Shown here in pieces: positions 9,896 to 16,662 of a stretch of 64,000 nt of DNA (the first letter of the stretch is position 1; each line of letters starts with the position of its first letter). The position numbers and the translations under genes are program-made. Location: positions 2,852,001 through 2,916,000 of the forward strand of contig NZ_CP071696.1 of NCBI RefSeq assembly GCF_018024495.1. The letters run 5' to 3'. The notes below the pieces were generated by a model. That model ran no database searches. It was given only the letters and a program-made list of their open reading frames with translations, and was not told the DNA's origin. The DNA comes from Agromyces archimandritae. Lineage in GTDB: Bacteria > Actinomycetota > Actinomycetes > Actinomycetales > Microbacteriaceae.

Positions 9896-10828
9896 TCAGT
9901 CGACCTCCGGCTTCAGGATCCTGATGTAGACGACCGAGAAGGCGGCGCCGATGAGGAGGGTGACGGTCGCGATGGCGGTGCCGTAGCCGAGCTGCGCGAA
10001 CTTGAACGCCTCCTGGTAGGCGAGCACCGGCAGGGTCGAGGACTGCGTGCCGGGTCCGCCGCCGGTCATCACCCAGATGAGGGTGAAGACGCCGAGGGTC
10101 TGCAGCGTCGTCAGCAGCAGGTTCGTCGAGATGGATCGGCGGATCACGGGCAGCGTCACCCGGGTGAAGCGCTGCCAGGCGCCGGCGCCGTCGATGGTGG
10201 CGGCTTCGGTGAGCTCGGGCGGTACTTCGGCGAGGGCGGCGTTGTAGACCATCATCGAGAACGCGGTGCCGCGCCAGATGTTCGCGATGATCACCGTCGC
10301 GAGCGGGAAGGAGTAGAGCCAGCTGGTGCCTTCGAGGCCGAGCCAGCCGAGCATGACGTTCAGGGTGCCGTCGGTGGAGAAGAACGCGTAGAGGGCGAAG
10401 GCCGCGACGATCTCGGGCAGCACCCAGGCGAGCACGACGAGGCCGCCGACGATGGATCGCAGCGGTTTCACGGAGCTGCGCAGCAGCACGGCCAGGGCCA
10501 TGCCGAGCACGTTCTGGCCGATCACCGCCGAGGCCAGGATGAACACGACCGTGAGCCACAGCGAGTTCCAGAAGTCGGCCGAGGCGAACAGCTCCGCGTA
10601 GTTGTCGAGGCCGATGAACTGCGGGTTCGCGGCGCGCGGGCCGGTCATCGCCCGGTCGGTCAGGGAACCGTAGAGCGAGTAGACGATGGGGCCGAGCATG
10701 AAGGCCGCGAGCAGCAGGACGGCCGGCAGCAGCGGCAGGAGCCGAGTGAGGGTGCGGCCGGCGGGCCGCGGCCGGGGGGCTGGCCCCCGGCCGCGGGCGA
10801 CCGTGCCGCGCGGGGCGACGGCGGTCAT
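9896..10828 (-). CDS. Carbohydrate ABC transporter permease (MalF type)
   Basis: A 310-residue permease with a basic, proline-rich N-terminus (about 1-28) and six or more membrane helices. The EAA loop is LTEAATIDGAGAWQRFTRVT. ATG 10828 is chosen because it begins just before the membrane-anchored region and lies eight bases after the binding-protein stop; longer upstream frames would run into the coding region of that gene. It forms the first half of the channel with the permease at 8977. Downstream linkage by a one-base gap implies tight co-translation. Confidence 0.88.
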   Translation of the reverse strand: MTAVAPRGTVARGRGPAPRPRPAGRTLTRLLPLLPAVLLLAAFMLGPIVYSLYGSLTDRAMTGPRAANPQFIGLDNYAELFASADFWNSLWLTVVFILASAVIGQNVLGMALAVLLRSSVKPLRSIVGGLVVLAWVLPEIVAAFALYAFFSTDGTLNVMLGWLGLEGTSWLYSFPLATVIIANIWRGTAFSMMVYNAALAEVPPELTEAATIDGAGAWQRFTRVTLPVIRRSISTNLLLTTLQTLGVFTLIWVMTGGGPGTQSSTLPVLAYQEAFKFAQLGYGTAIATVTLLIGAAFSVVYIRILKPEVD

Positions 10829-10836
10829 GTGCGGGA

Positions 10837-12189
10837 TCAGCCGGCCTGCGTGTTCTCCTCGCCGACGATGCCGACGAGTGCCGAGTCGTACTGTTCCTGC
10901 GCCTCGGCCGGGGTCGCCTGCCCGGTGAACACGGCCTCGGTCGCGACCGGGATGTTCGAGGAGATCTGCGAGTAGTCTGGGGTGGCCGGGCGGAAGTGCG
11001 TGTACGGCACGAGCGAGGAGAAGAACTCGAACGACGCGTTGTAGTCGAGGTACTCCTGGTTCTCGGCGACGTCGGAACGCACGGCGATCTGCCCGGCCTC
11101 CTGGTGGTAGAAGAGGGCGTTCTCGGGGGTGAGGGCCTGGGCGATGAAGTCGAACGCGGCCTGGGGGTCGTCGGCGTTGGCGCCCATCGCGAGCGTCCAG
11201 CCGCCCGACATCGAGGTGAAGCCGTCGCCGCCGCCGTCCTGCGTGGGCATCGCGGCGAAGCCGAGGGTGTCGTGCCACTCAGGCCATTCGTTCTCGCCCT
11301 CGATCCACTGGCTCGGCAGCCAGGAACCGTCGAGGGCGATCCCGAGGCCGCCGGCGGGCAGCAGCTCGGTGCTCACCTTCGTGCCCCAGTTGGCGTCGAG
11401 GGCTGCGGCGGGATCGGGCCCGAGGTCTTCCTTCGCGAGCGTCTCGTAGAAGCCGAGGGCGTCGAGGAAGCCCTTCGATCCCGTGACCCATGCGTTCGAG
11501 TCGGTGTCGAGCAGTTCGTCCTCGGTGCCGTAGAGCAGCATCTCGAAGCCCTGCATCGACGTCGCCTCGCCGAGCACGTTCGAGGCGTAGATGTTCATCG
11601 GCACGACGTCGGGGGAGGCTTTCTTGATGGTGCGGGCCGCGTCGAGGATGTCGTCCCAGCTCTTCGGCGCCCAGTCGGTCGGCAGCCCGGCCGCTTCGAA
11701 GACGTCCTTGTTGTAGTAGAGGCCGCGGGTGTCGGTGCCGAGCGAGACCCCGTAGGTCTTGCCGTCGTCGCCGAGGCCCGCCTGCCTGGAGCCTTCGTCG
11801 TAGAGCTCCCAGCCGTCCCAGTCGGCGAGGTAGTCGTCGATGGGCTGCAGGTAGCCGGCCGCGGCGTCGGAGCGGATCTGGAAGGTGTCCTCGTAGATTA
11901 CGTCGGGGGCCGTGTCGGGCGACCCGTTCATGAGCGCGAGCTTCGTGAAGTACTGGTCCTGCTCGGCTTCGATCGGGACGAGTTCGACGGTGCGGCCCGG
12001 GTTCGCGGCCTCGTACTCCTTCTTGGCCGTGTGCATGAGCTCGTCCATCGCGGTGAAGGTCGCGGTCTTCTGGTACGCGACGCGGATAGCGCCTTCGTTC
12101 GCTTCGCCCTCGCCGCCGGAGCAGCCCGCGAGGGCGGCGGTCAGGGTGACGACCCCGACCAGACCGAGCACCGTCCGTGTTCTGTTCAT
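10837..12189 (-). CDS. Sugar-binding lipoprotein of an ABC importer
   Basis: A 450-residue family 1 extracellular solute-binding protein. The signal peptide MNRTRTVLGLVGVVTLTAAL ends in the lipobox LAGC, so it is lipid-anchored outside the membrane. The body shows the usual two-lobe pattern, including YQKTATFTAMDEL, YNKDVFEAAGLPTDW and a C-terminal PAEAQEQYDSAL. AAAGGAGC precedes ATG 12189. It is the first gene downstream of a well-formed promoter with an AT-rich spacer (12233-12261), likely under control of the ROK protein encoded upstream. Ligand unknown, but the co-encoded alpha-mannosidase suggests mannosides. Confidence 0.9.
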   Translation of the reverse strand: MNRTRTVLGLVGVVTLTAALAGCSGGEGEANEGAIRVAYQKTATFTAMDELMHTAKKEYEAANPGRTVELVPIEAEQDQYFTKLALMNGSPDTAPDVIYEDTFQIRSDAAAGYLQPIDDYLADWDGWELYDEGSRQAGLGDDGKTYGVSLGTDTRGLYYNKDVFEAAGLPTDWAPKSWDDILDAARTIKKASPDVVPMNIYASNVLGEATSMQGFEMLLYGTEDELLDTDSNAWVTGSKGFLDALGFYETLAKEDLGPDPAAALDANWGTKVSTELLPAGGLGIALDGSWLPSQWIEGENEWPEWHDTLGFAAMPTQDGGGDGFTSMSGGWTLAMGANADDPQAAFDFIAQALTPENALFYHQEAGQIAVRSDVAENQEYLDYNASFEFFSSLVPYTHFRPATPDYSQISSNIPVATEAVFTGQATPAEAQEQYDSALVGIVGEENTQAG

Positions 12190-12232
12190 TCGCAGCTCCT
12201 TTGCTGTGGTGGGCGCGGGGTGCGCCGCTCTT

Positions 12233-12261
12233 TTTCTAAAGTAAATGGAGTTAAACGTCAA
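12233..12261 (-). promoter_or_regulatory. Promoter with embedded ROK-type operator
   Basis: On the minus strand TTGACG (12261-12256) and TAGAAA (12238-12233) are separated by exactly 17 bases. The spacer is unusually AT-rich for this window and includes TTTACTTTAG-like sequence resembling sites bound by ROK/NagC-family repressors. It lies between rok and the binding-protein gene and should drive the importer-mannosidase operon. Confidence 0.6.
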
Positions 12262-12319
12262 GGGTTTCGACCGGCCGGGTGTGGATCGGGTCACGGCCGG
12301 ATCCGCGCACCGCAGGCGC

Positions 12320-13525
12320 TCATCCGATCATGAGGCCCGCCGGCCTCGCCGTGAACGCGCCGTCCAGGACGAGACAGGCCGCACCGACCGCCGCGACATC
12401 CGTGTGCAGGCGCGTGCCGAGCAACTCGATGCCGCGCGTCGTGGTCGACTCGGTGCTCGTCGCGAGCGCCCTCGCCAGCCGAGGCTCGAGCGCCCGCGAG
12501 ATGCGGCTCCACATGGGGCCGCCGATGACGACGACGTCGGCATCGAGCAGATTGTTCATCGCGACCATCGCGCGGGCGAGCGACTCGGCCGTCCGGTCGA
12601 AGACCGCCCCCGCCCTCGCATCGCCGGCCAGGGCGCGCTCGGTCATCTCGCCGAGCAGCGCCCGCCACTCCGCGGGCGCGGTGCCGGCGCCGAGGCCGGC
12701 ATCCTCGATGAGCCGCTCGGGGGCGACGGCGACGCCGAGGCATCCGCGGTTCCCGCACCGGCACGCCGGGCCGCCGGGTTCGACGACGAGATGGGCGACG
12801 TCGCCGGCGTTGCCCGTCCGTCCCCGCACCGGCGTCGCATCCACTGCGAGACCGACGCCGACACCCGCCCCGTAGTAGAAGAAGATCGCCTCGCCGAGCC
12901 CCTGCGAAGCATCCACCCACAGTTCGCCGACCATGGCCGCCACGACGTCCTTCTCGACCGTCACCGGCAACCCGGTCGCCTGCTGCAGCGAATCTCGGAG
13001 CGGCACATGATGCCAGGCCGGCAGCATCGGCGGTTCGAGCAGCGACCCGCGCTCGGCATCGATCGGGCCGGGCGCGGCGACCCCGATCCCGAGCACCCGG
13101 TCCCGTCGCACGCCGGCACGGTCGAGGAGTTCATTGGCGCGGCTTGCGAGATCGGGCAGCGGCATGCCGTGCTCCGGCCCGGGATGCGGGGCGTGCTCCT
13201 CATGCGCGACGACCGTGCCGGCCAGGTCGACGAGCACGAACGTATCGACCGCAGGATCGAGGTGGATGCCGACGGCGAAACGCGACTGCGGGTTCAGGCG
13301 GAGCGGCGTCGGCGGCTTGCCCTTGCCGGCGACCACCGGGGCGCCTTCGACGACCATGCCCGTGTCGACGAGCCTGCGGGCGACGTTGCTGAGGGTCTGC
13401 GCCGAGAGCCCGGTGCGCTCGGCCAGTTCGGAACGACTGAGCCCGTCGGCGGAACGCCGGATCAGGTCGAGCACGAGGGTCTGGTTGTAGGTGCCGACGG
13501 CGGGGAGGTTGGAACCGCGTCTCAT
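12320..13525 (-). CDS. ROK-family transcriptional regulator
   Basis: A 401-residue protein: N-terminal winged helix (about 10-65, NQTLVLDLIRRSADGLSRSE ...) followed by a sugar-kinase-like ROK domain. The ROK zinc-binding signature CRCGNRGCLGV is intact, as is the DLAGTVVAHEEH phosphate-1-type motif. ROK repressors of this build release DNA when bound to a sugar or sugar phosphate. The binding-protein operon starts 131 bases downstream with an AT-rich promoter, the obvious target. ATG 13525 is preferred over GTG 13543. Two insertion sequences now sit about 50 bases upstream, so its original promoter or readthrough from the nitronate monooxygenase gene may be interrupted. Confidence 0.88.
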   Translation of the reverse strand: MRRGSNLPAVGTYNQTLVLDLIRRSADGLSRSELAERTGLSAQTLSNVARRLVDTGMVVEGAPVVAGKGKPPTPLRLNPQSRFAVGIHLDPAVDTFVLVDLAGTVVAHEEHAPHPGPEHGMPLPDLASRANELLDRAGVRRDRVLGIGVAAPGPIDAERGSLLEPPMLPAWHHVPLRDSLQQATGLPVTVEKDVVAAMVGELWVDASQGLGEAIFFYYGAGVGVGLAVDATPVRGRTGNAGDVAHLVVEPGGPACRCGNRGCLGVAVAPERLIEDAGLGAGTAPAEWRALLGEMTERALAGDARAGAVFDRTAESLARAMVAMNNLLDADVVVIGGPMWSRISRALEPRLARALATSTESTTTRGIELLGTRLHTDVAAVGAACLVLDGAFTARPAGLMIG

Positions 13526-13574
13526 GCAGCGACCGTACGCCACCGCGCCGCCGGCGCGCGCGATTCGCGCGACG

Positions 13575-13580
13575 GCTAGG
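13575..13580. repeat. Left target duplication of the IS481-like element
   Basis: GCTAGG here is repeated exactly at 14675-14680, directly flanking the element ends. The 6-bp NCTAGN form matches the target known for IS481. Confidence 0.85.
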
Positions 13581-14577
13581 TGTACTTCCCCGTGACGTTG
13601 TGAACGCGTTGTGAGGGTGTTTGGCCGCCGATGCCGGTGTGGGGTCTGTGGTGATTGTAGTCATGGAGCCAGGTGTCGTAGGCGGCGGTTCGTTCGGCTT
13701 CGCTGGTGTAGGGCTTCGCGTAGGCCCATTCGGCGGCGAGGGTTCGGTTGAACCGTTCGACTTTGCCGTTGGTCTGGGGCCGGTAGGGCTTGGTCCACTT
13801 GTGCTTCACGTTCTCGCCGAGGGCGTCGGCGAAGGCGTGGGAGCGGTAGCAGGCACCGTTGTCGGTCATTACCGCGGTCACTGTCACCCCGAGGCCGGTG
13901 AAGAACGCGTTCGCGCGGTTCCAGAACCCGGCGGCGGTCTCTTTGCGTTCGTCGTCGAGGATCTCCGAGTACGCGACCCGTGAGTAGTCGTCCACGGCGT
14001 GGTGCAGGTAGCGGTAGCCGCGTGAACCTGCCGCGCCGGCCCGGGCGGCTTTGTCGCGGGCGAGGCCAGCGTGGCGGTCCTGGGCGGACCCGCGGCCGTG
14101 GACGCGCCAGCCGCCGCCGTCGGGGATCCGGCCTTGCTTCTTGATGTCCACATGCACCAACTGACCCGGTTTGGCGACTTCGTAACGCACCGGCTTGGGC
14201 TTGCGGACGGGCAGCCCTGTGGCCTGGTCGATGTTCGCCAGCTTCGGCATCCGATACCGTGCGAGCACCCGGCCGACCGTGGAACGGTGCAGCCCCAGGT
14301 GATACGCGATCCGGTGCGGCCCCCACCGACGGACGAACCGCAACGCGAGGATTCGCCGTTCTGTCTTGCGCGGCAGCCGGCCCGGTGACGAGTGAGGCCT
14401 CGAACTACGGTCGGTCAGCGGCAGGCCGGCGCGGTACCGGCGAGCCCACCGAGATGCCGTCGCCGGCGAACACTGAAAGCGTTCGGCCGCACGGCGGACA
14501 GTCCAACCGTCATCGACGATCAGAACGGCAAGACGTCGACGCCCCTCCGGCGTCAAGGGCGCGTTAGCGTGAGTCAC
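13576..14577 (-). CDS. IS481-family DDE transposase
   Basis: A 333-residue transposase: N-terminal helix-turn-helix (RRLAVLIVDDGWTVRRAAER, then CSPATASRWARRY), a second HTH (HRIAYHLGLHRSTVGRVL) and an integrase catalytic core with D in LVHVDIKKQG, D in AVMTDNGACYRS and E in QTNGKVERFNRTL. I chose GTG 14577, seven bases from GGAGGTC. The frame runs off the element's terminal repeat (GKY then T) and ends at TAG formed by the CTAG target (13576-13578), so the last codon depends on the insertion site. No frameshift or stop interrupts it; probably active. Confidence 0.92.
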   Translation of the reverse strand: MTHANAPLTPEGRRRLAVLIVDDGWTVRRAAERFQCSPATASRWARRYRAGLPLTDRSSRPHSSPGRLPRKTERRILALRFVRRWGPHRIAYHLGLHRSTVGRVLARYRMPKLANIDQATGLPVRKPKPVRYEVAKPGQLVHVDIKKQGRIPDGGGWRVHGRGSAQDRHAGLARDKAARAGAAGSRGYRYLHHAVDDYSRVAYSEILDDERKETAAGFWNRANAFFTGLGVTVTAVMTDNGACYRSHAFADALGENVKHKWTKPYRPQTNGKVERFNRTLAAEWAYAKPYTSEAERTAAYDTWLHDYNHHRPHTGIGGQTPSQRVHNVTGKYT

Positions 14578-14674
14578 GAAGACCTCCGTGGTCAGGACGG
14601 TGAGTGTGGTAACCCACATCCTGCCCCGGAGGTCTTCACTACCTCAGCCGTTCACAACCTGTCAGGGAAGTACA
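13581..14674 (-). mobile_element. IS481-family insertion sequence
   Basis: A 1094-bp element bounded by imperfect 25-bp inverted repeats: left end TGTACTTCCC...TTGTGAAC (13581-13605) and the reverse complement at 14650-14674, with 21 of 25 positions matching. It is flanked by 6-bp direct repeats GCTAGG. It carries one DDE transposase on the minus strand. The stop codon of that gene lies in the left target repeat rather than inside the element. It is complete by all visible criteria. Confidence 0.92.
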
Positions 14675-14680
14675 GCTAGG
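14675..14680. repeat. Right target duplication of IS481-like element, shared with IS5-like element
   Basis: GCTAGG repeats 13575-13580. Its inner CTAG (14676-14679) is at the same time the left 4-bp target copy of the IS5-like element, and its last G is that element's first base. Confidence 0.85.
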
Positions 14681-15618
14681 GCGTGTTGATCAAGAGGAAT
14701 CGATGCTCGATCGGTGAGTCTTGATGGGTGACGCGACAGGAGATCTCTGACGAGGTGTGGTCGGTGATGGAGCCGTTGATGCCGACGGTGACCGGGAGGT
14801 CGCGGCCGTGGACTAATCACCGGCTCAGTGTCGAGGGGATGGCGTGGAAGTACCGCACCGGCGCGCCATGGCGGGACGTCCCGGAGCGGTTCGGGAAGTG
14901 GAACTCGATCTACAAGCGGTTCAACCGGTGGGCCGAGGACGGCACCTGGGAGAAGCTGCTGGCCGAGGTGCAGAAGCAGGCCGACGCCGCCGGGAAGATC
15001 GACTGGGTGGTGTCGATCGACTCGACGATCGCGCGTGTGCATCAGCACGGCGCGACCCTGGCCCGGGACACAGGGGGCTCTGCCGAATCACAAGAATCCG
15101 TGGTTCGAGCCGCCTGATCATGCGATCGGCCGATCCCGCGGCGGGTTGACCACGAAGCTGCATCTGGTCGCCGATGGGCGCGGCAGACCGCTCGGCATGG
15201 TGGTCACCGGCGGGAACGTCAACGACACCACGATGATGACCGCTGTGCTCGACGACATCCGCGTGCCACGTGCGGGGAAGGGCCGACCACGGACCAGGCC
15301 GGCCCGAGTGCTCGCGGACAAGGGGTATCCGTCGAAGGCGAACCGGGCCTGGCTGCGCGAACGCGGAATCGCCGCGACGATCCCCGAACGCGATGACCAG
15401 ATCGCGCACCGCCGCAAGAAGCCCGGCCGGCCGATCGACTTCGGCGACCAGCAGCAGGAGCGATACAAGGGCCGCAACGTCGTCGAACGCTGCTTCAACC
15501 GGCTCAAGCAATGGCGTGGAATCGCGATGCGCTCAGACAAGCTCGCCCGCAACTACCGCGCCGGCATCTGCCTCACCGCGACCCTGATCTGGATCAAGAC
15601 CGACTTGATCAACACGGC
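14680..15618 (+). mobile_element. IS5-family (IS427-like) insertion sequence
   Basis: A 939-bp element. The ends GGCGTGTTGATCAAG (14680-14694) and CTTGATCAACACGGC (15604-15618) form 15-bp inverted repeats with one mismatch. CTAG lies immediately outside both ends (14676-14679 and 15619-15622), fitting the 4-bp CTAG/YTAR target of this family. It contains two overlapping transposase frames on the plus strand, the usual IS427-group arrangement. Confidence 0.88.
14728..15117 (+). CDS. IS5-family transposase, first frame (orfA)
   Basis: A 129-residue frame starting at GTG 14728. The N-terminal DUF4096-type domain (SDEVWSVMEPLMP, RTGAPWRDVPERFGKWNS, VYKRF-like YKRFNRWAEDG) is followed by the first catalytic Asp in VVSIDSTIARVHQHG. 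After ARDTGG it diverges from transposase sequence and ends at TGA 15115-15117, so it is only the front part of the enzyme. The rest lies in another frame beginning around 15074. Confidence 0.85.
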   Translation: MTRQEISDEVWSVMEPLMPTVTGRSRPWTNHRLSVEGMAWKYRTGAPWRDVPERFGKWNSIYKRFNRWAEDGTWEKLLAEVQKQADAAGKIDWVVSIDSTIARVHQHGATLARDTGGSAESQESVVRAA

Positions 15619-15622
15619 CTAG
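15074..15622 (+). CDS. IS5-family transposase, second frame (orfB), read by frameshift
   Basis: The catalytic remainder of the transposase: GALPNHKNPWFEPPDHAIGR, RSRGGLTTKLHLVADG, the second Asp in VLADKGYPSK, and the Y-2-R-3-E-6-K signature YKGRNVVERCFNRLK. It has no start of its own at this point. It lies +1 (equivalently -2) relative to orfA, and the switch falls in ACAGGGGGCTCTG (15070-15082). The stop TAG (15620-15622) is in the flanking CTAG target, not in the element. The coordinate given as start is the first codon after the presumed shift. Confidence 0.75.
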   Translation, partial: GALPNHKNPWFEPPDHAIGRSRGGLTTKLHLVADGRGRPLGMVVTGGNVNDTTMMTAVLDDIRVPRAGKGRPRTRPARVLADKGYPSKANRAWLRERGIAATIPERDDQIAHRRKKPGRPIDFGDQQQERYKGRNVVERCFNRLKQWRGIAMRSDKLARNYRAGICLTATLIWIKTDLINTA

Positions 15623-16662
15623 GGCCGCACGCCCTCCGCAAGCCACCGGATGACGCCGGCCGCGGGGCCGGCGGGGGCGCTGCGCCACCCGGTTCCCGCC
15701 CAGAGGTGGAGGCGGTCGGCGTCTCCGGCCGCGCCGGCGGCCTGACGGAGCGGGCTGGTGAGATGGTGGACGGCCGGGTACGCGGTCGGTGCGGATGCGC
15801 CGTGCCGTTCGGCGAATCCGTTCCGCAGTGCGCGGGCGGGCCGGCCGGTGAACGCGCGCGTCAGCACCGTCTCGGTGAACGCGGGGTCGGCGAGCGCTCG
15901 CGCGTGGGTCGGGGAGGTGCCGGCCTCGTCGGTGCGGAGCAGGAGGGTGCCGACGGCGACGCCGTGCGCCCCGGCATCCATCAGACGGCGGACGGCGGCC
16001 GGCCCGTCCACGCCGCCTGCCGCGATCACGGGGAGGCCGACGGCGTCCAGCACACGGCGGACGAGGGCCGCCGTGTCGCCCGGCTCGGGATCGCGGGCCG
16101 GGTCGAAGGTCGCGCTGTGGCCGCCGGCATCGAATCCCTGCACGACCAGGCCGTCGACTCCGGCATCCCGTGCCGCTTCGGCCTCGGCCGGGGTCGTGAC
16201 GCTGGCGAGCACACGGCTTCCCGCGGCCTGGAGGCCTGCGATGTCCGCGGGTGCGGGCAGTCCGAAGGTGAGGGAGACGAGCGGAGCGGGACGGTCGAGG
16301 AGCAGCGCGAGCTTCTCGGCCCATCGGTCGTCGTCGGCGACGGGGGAGGGATTCGGCTCGAGCCCGTACTGCGCCGCCTCGCCGCGCACCTCTTCGGCGT
16401 ACGCCGCGAAGGCGGCGTCATCCACGGGCTGGTCCGAGGGGACGAACAGGTTGACGCCGAACCCGACGCCGATCCCGCGGACCGCTTCGATTTCGGCCGC
16501 GAGCGCTTCGGAGGTCTTGTAGCCGCCGGCGAGGAACGGGAAGCCGCCCGCCGACGCGACCGCCCGAGCCAGCGCGACCGTCGACGGCCCGCCGGCCATC
16601 GGGGCCGCCGCGATCGGCAGCGGTGAGGTCAGCAGCGGATCGGGCTCGGGGCGCCCGTACAT
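15619..16662 (-). CDS. Nitronate monooxygenase family FMN protein
   Basis: A 347-residue TIM-barrel flavoprotein of the nitronate monooxygenase/2-nitropropane dioxygenase family. Visible signatures are the opening PIAAAPMAGGPST, FLAGGYKT, VNLFVP, VVQGFDAGGHSA (with the conserved active-site His) and VIAAGGVDGPAAV followed by GAHGVAVGTLLL. Family members oxidise alkyl nitronates such as propionate-3-nitronate. ATG 16662 overlaps the stop of arr by one base (TGATG), so the two are co-translated. The stop TAG lies in the CTAG target of the IS5-like element; the insertion left the protein length unchanged. Confidence 0.88.
   Translation of the reverse strand: MYGRPEPDPLLTSPLPIAAAPMAGGPSTVALARAVASAGGFPFLAGGYKTSEALAAEIEAVRGIGVGFGVNLFVPSDQPVDDAAFAAYAEEVRGEAAQYGLEPNPSPVADDDRWAEKLALLLDRPAPLVSLTFGLPAPADIAGLQAAGSRVLASVTTPAEAEAARDAGVDGLVVQGFDAGGHSATFDPARDPEPGDTAALVRRVLDAVGLPVIAAGGVDGPAAVRRLMDAGAHGVAVGTLLLRTDEAGTSPTHARALADPAFTETVLTRAFTGRPARALRNGFAERHGASAPTAYPAVHHLTSPLRQAAGAAGDADRLHLWAGTGWRSAPAGPAAGVIRWLAEGVRP

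Follow-up and report, generated by a model that had tools for sequence, protein, structure and literature searches.

Positions 13575–15622 of the stretch of Agromyces archimandritae DNA analysed here (64,000 nucleotides, hereafter the window; the source genome is a single contig of 3.45 Mb) hold two adjoining insertion sequences (IS) on a single target, IS481-like on the left and IS5-like on the right, where the resident nitronate monooxygenase gene has its stop codon. The locus is made up as follows, with the two parts of the IS5 transposase given as open reading frames (ORFs) A and B.

13575–13580, no strand: left target copy GCTAGG; its CTAG (13576–13579) gives the IS481 transposase stop on the minus strand
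13581–14674, minus strand: IS481-family element of 1,094 bp (five full copies genome-wide, this one included), ends paired at 22/26 positions
13576–14619, minus strand: IS481 family transposase of 347 amino acids (NCBIfam NF033577; Pfam rve, rve_3)
14675–14680, no strand: middle (shared) target copy GCTAGG; its CTAG (14676–14679) doubles as the left duplication of the IS5 element
14680–15618, plus strand: IS5-family (IS427-type) element of 939 bp, the sole full copy in the genome, ends paired at 14/15 positions
14728–15117, plus strand: ORFA of the IS5 transposase, N-terminal part (Pfam DUF4096; NCBIfam NF033580 positions 2–114)
15071–15078, plus strand: CAGGGGGC tract, near which the frame would change by +1 (or −2), the exact place being inferred; the offset is shared by relatives
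14828–15622, plus strand: ORFB frame of the IS5 transposase (NCBIfam NF033580 positions 114–258; Pfam DDE_Tnp_1), its homologous part starting near 15095
15619–15622, no strand: right target copy CTAG, the stop of IS5 ORFB (plus strand) and of the nitronate monooxygenase (minus strand)
15619–16662, minus strand: resident nitronate monooxygenase of 347 amino acids, open coding sequence (Pfam NMO, E 7.2e-72)
12320–13543, minus strand: ROK-family regulator gene (Pfam ROK)

CTAG is found at 13576, 14676 and 15619. The IS481-like element is enclosed by the direct repeat GCTAGG (13575–13580 and 14675–14680) and the IS5-like element by the direct repeat CTAG (14676–14679 and 15619–15622), which confirms base for base what a preliminary description of this DNA had claimed, i.e. 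that the two elements share one target copy, the middle CTAG at 14676–14679. Base 14680 is both the last base of the middle GCTAGG and the first base of the IS5 element. The inverted ends read TGTACTTCCC...GGGAAGTACA for the IS481-like element (22 of 26 positions paired) and GGCGTGTTGATCAAG...CTTGATCAACACGGC for the IS5-like element (14 of 15). The stop codons, too, lie where they had been placed: that of the IS481 transposase is the TAG at 13578–13576 (minus strand) in the left CTAG, whereas the right CTAG provides both the TAG of IS5 ORFB (15620–15622, plus strand) and that of the monooxygenase (15621–15619, minus strand). The wording that one CTAG provides three stop codons is correct as to the number of stops, but there are three copies of CTAG, with all the stops in the outer two and none in the middle one. 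Neither the IS481 transposase frame nor, downstream of the G run, the IS5 ORFB frame contains an in-frame stop within its element, and the target supplies the IS481 transposase with its stop as well as part of its last codon. Beyond the target TAG, the next in-frame stop follows after 17 codons for the IS481 and 40 codons for the IS5 frame; for the monooxygenase it follows after 21 codons in the present context and after 17 in the joint empty site.

The terminal inverted repeats of the IS481 family start with TGT, and the left element bears TGTACTTCCC at both ends, in agreement with the inverted repeats of that family. Its transposase (with the domains HTH, LZ_Tnp_IS481 and rve) scores 344.9 bits against NCBIfam NF033577, over the cut-off of 224, which places it in the IS481 family, and the direct repeat is of the NCTAGN form expected of members that target CTAG (GCTAGG here). 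The genome holds five full copies, each of 1,094 bp and with at most two positions different from the window copy, besides two short partial matches. All five have CTAG on both sides (with equal six-mers in four), and in all five the transposase has 347 residues and uses the flanking TAG as its stop, the last residue (T, S, S, I, S) depending on which base the target contributes. One of them (L004) also lies on a resident stop codon, that of a DUF4232 protein gene. The fifth copy (L005, G000:C1:1718181-1722285), with the unequal flanks GCTAGC/GCTAGA, has both of the single-base variants that are held singly by L002 and L003 (element positions 584 and 290), a combination which, together with the flanks, is as recombination between copies might give; a remnant of another IS481 element (L006) lies 2 kb from it.

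The same dependence on the target is seen in IS481 relatives elsewhere. A scan for the transposase in one genome per species (84,980 species) gave 173 related stretches, the best 80 of which correspond to 79 loci with named records, several of them sharing a genome (ten are from Microbacterium lacticum). At 67 of these 79 loci the frame stops on the TAG of a CTAG at the element end (64 of 75 after merging identical contexts). The other 12 comprise two contig ends (L153, L154), four shortened matches (L123, L140, L181, L183), three loci that stop at the same place on a variant target, i.e. CATAG (L132), CTTAG (L148) or CTAA (L152), and three that read through by 2, 12 and 17 codons (L128, L145, L146), as is expected if the stop is not part of the element. 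A separate sample of the family (29 loci, L040–L068) contained 12 elements with both ends recognised by an exact pattern, in 11 of which a frame of 230 codons or more extends into the target stop; the CTAG flanks of all 12 were demanded by that pattern, and two of the 12 (L040, L046) coincide with places among the 79 loci. An identical IS481 end and flank (60 nt) recurs in three records titled Mycobacterium, Tsukamurella and Gordonia (L189, L190, L191), for which a shared plasmid or contamination could account.

The two halves of the IS5 transposase score 119.5 (ORFA) and 152.5 bits (ORFB) against NCBIfam NF033580 (cut-off 110), which is a model of the IS5 family that does not name the IS427 group. 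For that group, the consulted part of PMC3281130 reports two overlapping frames with a frameshift motif and, in a table, a duplication of 2–4 bp. The CTAG on both sides of the right element is of that size, and its ORFA and ORFB, with a conserved offset near a G or A run, would fit such a two-frame plan. ORFA runs to 15117 and ORFB, in its homologous part, is one base ahead in frame, so that joining them near CACAGGGGGC (window 15061–15090) needs a frame change of +1 or −2. The two halves being in different frames could simply mean that this is a dead copy in which ORFA and ORFB were put out of frame by mutation. This is unlikely, since this +1 (or −2) offset recurs in 37 of the 45 loci that match both transposase halves (the window copy, L192, included), mostly at a G run and in three loci (L089, L214, L220) at AAAAAAGGG (A6G3), and since overlapping frames with a frameshift motif are what is reported for the IS427 group (PMC3281130, as far as consulted). 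Among the 45 loci, L072 and L212 denote a single place, while matches in two frames were obtained for L076 and L081; the remaining eight have both halves in the same frame, a −1 offset or mixed frames. IS elements usually have a programmed shift of −1. The shared offset suggests that RNA polymerase or the ribosome may slip at the G or A run.

As the genome contains no second full copy of the IS5 element (only a 117-bp stretch at 71% in addition), its target rule has to be read from relatives. After dropping the window copy, matches short of the end, five identical tails and three contig ends, 44 distinct tails were left: 18 have their stop in the target (CTAG in 17, CTAA in one), ten have it inside the element, 12–15 bases before its end, and three read past it; the other 13 are without a recognised end, although one of them (L078) also stops on CTAG. 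CTAG nevertheless flanks all ten relatives that stop inside the element, and targeting is therefore independent of stop borrowing. In the IS5 family, completion of the frame at CTAG is thus a by-product and does not explain why this target is chosen. The preliminary description, which had both transposases borrowing their stop and both frames being completed by insertion at CTAG, needs to be qualified accordingly. Both indeed end on a target TAG, but the IS5 transposase is split and only its ORFB borrows; and completion holds for the IS481 element (five of five copies, 67 of 79 loci), but not for those IS5 relatives (ten of 31) that have an inner stop at CTAG. The opposite pattern, i.e. stops within the element and insertion at unrelated sites, was not found for IS481, with the same five of five copies and 67 of 79 loci on CTAG. 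For IS5 its first part was found, in the inner stops of these ten, but not its second.

Without an inner stop and with the TAG of CTAG in use, the window IS5 copy borrows its stop in the manner of IS870. The latter, said to belong to the IS5 family, was described by Fournier et al. in 1993 (cited in PMC6471742), with a title stating that the CTAG target is required to generate the stop codon of the large ORF1; the likeness is by title and not by sequence comparison.

Stop borrowing from CTAG is in fact an already published mechanism, of which the present site is a further example. For Rhodococcus equi, PMC6794481 (in the text examined) describes an IS481-family element that targets CTAG and whose transposase is ended by the TAG of that target. 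As in the present case, TnRErm46/ISRe46 has an NCTAGN duplication with the flanking TAG as transposase stop, and some target genes (e.g. parB) retain a stop from the other copy; unlike the present case, it is a transposon with other genes, and no target copy shared with a second IS family is mentioned in the text examined. Stop borrowing is also described for ISLxc2 and ISLxx4 of Leifsonia xyli in the consulted part of PMC2516522, which cites earlier descriptions in the IS481 family. These elements are likewise of the IS481 family, with an NCTAGN target and the transposase stop in the host insertion site, and ISLxc2 (1,105 bp) is close in length to the element described here (1,094 bp), but its transposase has an in-frame stop near the start. 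Leifsonia also has an IS5-family element, IS1237, which differs from the one studied here in that it enters ISLxc2 at TTA, 13 bp upstream of the transposase gene (PMC2516522). The present analysis contributes the double case, its partial counterpart in Rhodococcus phenolicus, the counts over relatives and the argument from CTAG supply.

It is very probable that two unrelated CTAG-targeting DDE insertion sequences inserted successively at the CTAG of the monooxygenase stop and borrowed their own stops from that target. The CTAG would have been the TAG stop of the monooxygenase gene, entered by both elements one after the other. Neither element has a stop of its own for the frame that reaches its end; with the element end flush with the target, the TAG of the duplicated CTAG terminates the transposase frame. 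CTAG is its own reverse complement, so that each copy gives a TAG in one frame per strand, and with TAG on both strands the resident gene keeps a stop while the incoming transposase gains one. The second element would then have used the target copy made by the first as neutral ground; that there were two separate insertion events, and that neutrality was the reason for the stacking, is inferred, while the boundaries, duplications, stops, copies and relatives are observed directly.

Several observations weigh against such an origin. The flanks are unequal at L005 and at 17 of 53 IS481 sites overall, which means that not every IS481 copy is a simple insertion. Since recombination between IS copies would produce such flanks, it could also be asked whether recombination, rather than two insertions, gave rise to the present arrangement. 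This is extremely improbable, as both duplications are perfect here (GCTAGG/GCTAGG and CTAG/CTAG), the outer flanks fit one continuous target, and the genome has no second full IS5 copy to recombine with. For that same lack of a second copy, the target rule of the IS5 element has to be taken from its relatives, and ten of the 31 relatives with a recognised end have a stop of their own, as does the IS5-family element of the R. phenolicus counterpart (L161, below), which ends on a TGA inside the element while the IS481 stop there is borrowed. Nor was the empty site, for which related genomes were to be checked, found in any of the genomes searched, i.e. in 60 genus genomes including this one (protein) and in 398 family genomes drawn from a larger group (DNA): the closest monooxygenase in the 59 other genus genomes is 53% identical, and the best relatives in DNA are 74% identical. 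As no close relative was found, the pre-insertion state is deduced from the duplications alone. Finally, among the 15 monooxygenase relatives with a readable stop, 12 end on TGA, one on TAA and two on TAG, none of them in a CTAG.

Two successive insertions at the stop codon, as favoured here, would have left the monooxygenase intact, and its coding sequence is indeed open. The 15 relatives stop 0–16 codons after the match ends, close to the C-terminus of this protein. The sequence of the empty site at the monooxygenase stop would be GGCTAGGGCC, and in the joint empty site the gene of the ROK-family regulator began 32 nt after that stop, on the same strand; no match to the ROK gene was found in the short flanks of the monooxygenase relatives. 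That the resident gene was spared by the insertion, as had been claimed, is right in so far as the coding sequence keeps its stop, but the insertions now part it from the ROK gene by 2 kb. The IS481 transposase, oriented like the monooxygenase, now stands in its place: its stop falls exactly where the old one was, leaving 32 nt to the regulator gene. Downstream of the ROK gene, on the same strand (window 9896–13543), there are genes resembling a sugar ABC transporter (a binding protein in frame 10837–12294 and a permease in frame 9896–11278, as judged by eye from the translations), and the IS pair now lies upstream of this ROK and ABC transporter-like group.

Whether the elements seek the stop codons of genes as such (e.g. 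through DNA or RNA features linked to termination), or whether such hits simply follow from where CTAG occurs, can be considered from the supply of the motif. In a sample of 464 kb (the window together with 20 stretches of 20 kb each; G+C 71%), CTAG was observed 63 times, compared to 1,211 expected by base composition (a 19-fold deficit) and 290 by a second-order Markov model, and the 64-kb window has only five, three of them at this site. For the whole genome, about 450 CTAGs are estimated. Gene calls by a simple custom gene finder put 49 of the 63 between genes, nine on stop codons and five inside genes; minus the three copies of this site, the numbers are 48, seven and five (n = 60). The site was probably available for this reason, CTAG being rare in the genome and almost absent from coding DNA. 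With a motif this rare, a pair of insertions that both lie flush on one CTAG and have matching duplications is more than chance and reflects target specificity.

A comparison over 53 IS481 insertion sites (48 of the 79 loci plus the five of this genome; the other 31 loci were left out because the 5' CTAG or the CTAG stop was unrecognised) gave 15 on a called stop, 33 between genes and five in genes, while the 202 remaining CTAGs in the flanks of these sites gave 30, 116 and 56, respectively. Insertions lie on stops about twice as often (15/53 vs 30/202, P = 0.027; 11/36 for equal duplications only, P = 0.030), and, with the one site whose resident gene is a transposase (L122) excluded, the resident gene has a Pfam match in 12 of the remaining 14 stop sites, all of which would be in line with a search for stops. 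However, insertions avoid genes (5/53 vs 56/202, P = 0.006), which could account for the excess, and without the CTAGs that lie inside genes the excess is no longer significant (15/48 vs 30/146, P = 0.17; 11/33 for equal duplications only, P = 0.17). Leaving out L122 also brings the overall difference at stops to P = 0.06, four of the 15 stop sites are less safe on account of unequal flanks, the gene calls come from a simple script, and several sites share one genome. A preference for stop codons as such is not supported beyond the placement of CTAG, and stop-seeking elements are a quite improbable explanation; the hit on a stop codon is mostly explained by CTAG supply. At two further loci (L172, L177), two convergent called genes end on one CTAG on opposite strands, with an IS481 element on that CTAG; the flanks are unequal at both, and one of the L172 genes matches only part of a relaxase.

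Stacks of this kind are also found in other genomes. Among the 79 loci, R. phenolicus (L161) has an IS5-family and an IS481 element that share one CTAG (CTAG at 2854, 3901 and 4975), with the IS481 stop being the TAG of the target, as in A. archimandritae. That both transposases end on a target TAG there was ruled out, since the IS5 frame reaches its TGA four codons before the target, and the triple use of the target is therefore not repeated at L161. It further differs in that the two elements have the same direction and that no called gene has its stop at the joint empty site. Microbacterium lacticum has four IS481 pairs that each share a CTAG (L120, L121, L122, L174). At L157 the sequence right after the target resembles another element end, with no neighbouring transposase matched when relatives of the two transposases were sought within 400 bp. 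These numbers are a lower bound, only relatives of both transposases within 400 bp having been searched. Among the papers listed in literature searches on stacking, no title or abstract beginning describes an IS5 plus an IS481 element on one CTAG. Each insertion turns one CTAG into two, and with five IS481 copies and about 450 sites, about 2% of random insertions at CTAG would hit a copy borne by an IS (10 of ~460), which makes stacking uncommon, but not remarkable for a case chosen as striking. As had already been concluded in the preliminary description, the order of the two insertions cannot be told: both histories were read against the bases, and position 14680 is G whether it comes from the target or is the first base of the IS5 element.

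Existing knowledge of the IS481 and IS5 families is left unchanged by these results. They do show, in one place, a palindromic target that serves a transposase, a second transposase and a host gene together, and they add counts to a trick known from single cases. A wider account, which is speculative and for now rather doubtful, would be that unrelated IS families in high-G+C actinobacteria have converged on the scarce, non-coding CTAG as a low-harm address, that CTAGs which are hit again grow stacks, and that in the IS481 branch the missing stop acts as a check, in that only copies placed at CTAG would give a transposase of native length. The scarcity of CTAG and the repeated stacks would make this a testable account of the low harm and the clustering of such elements.

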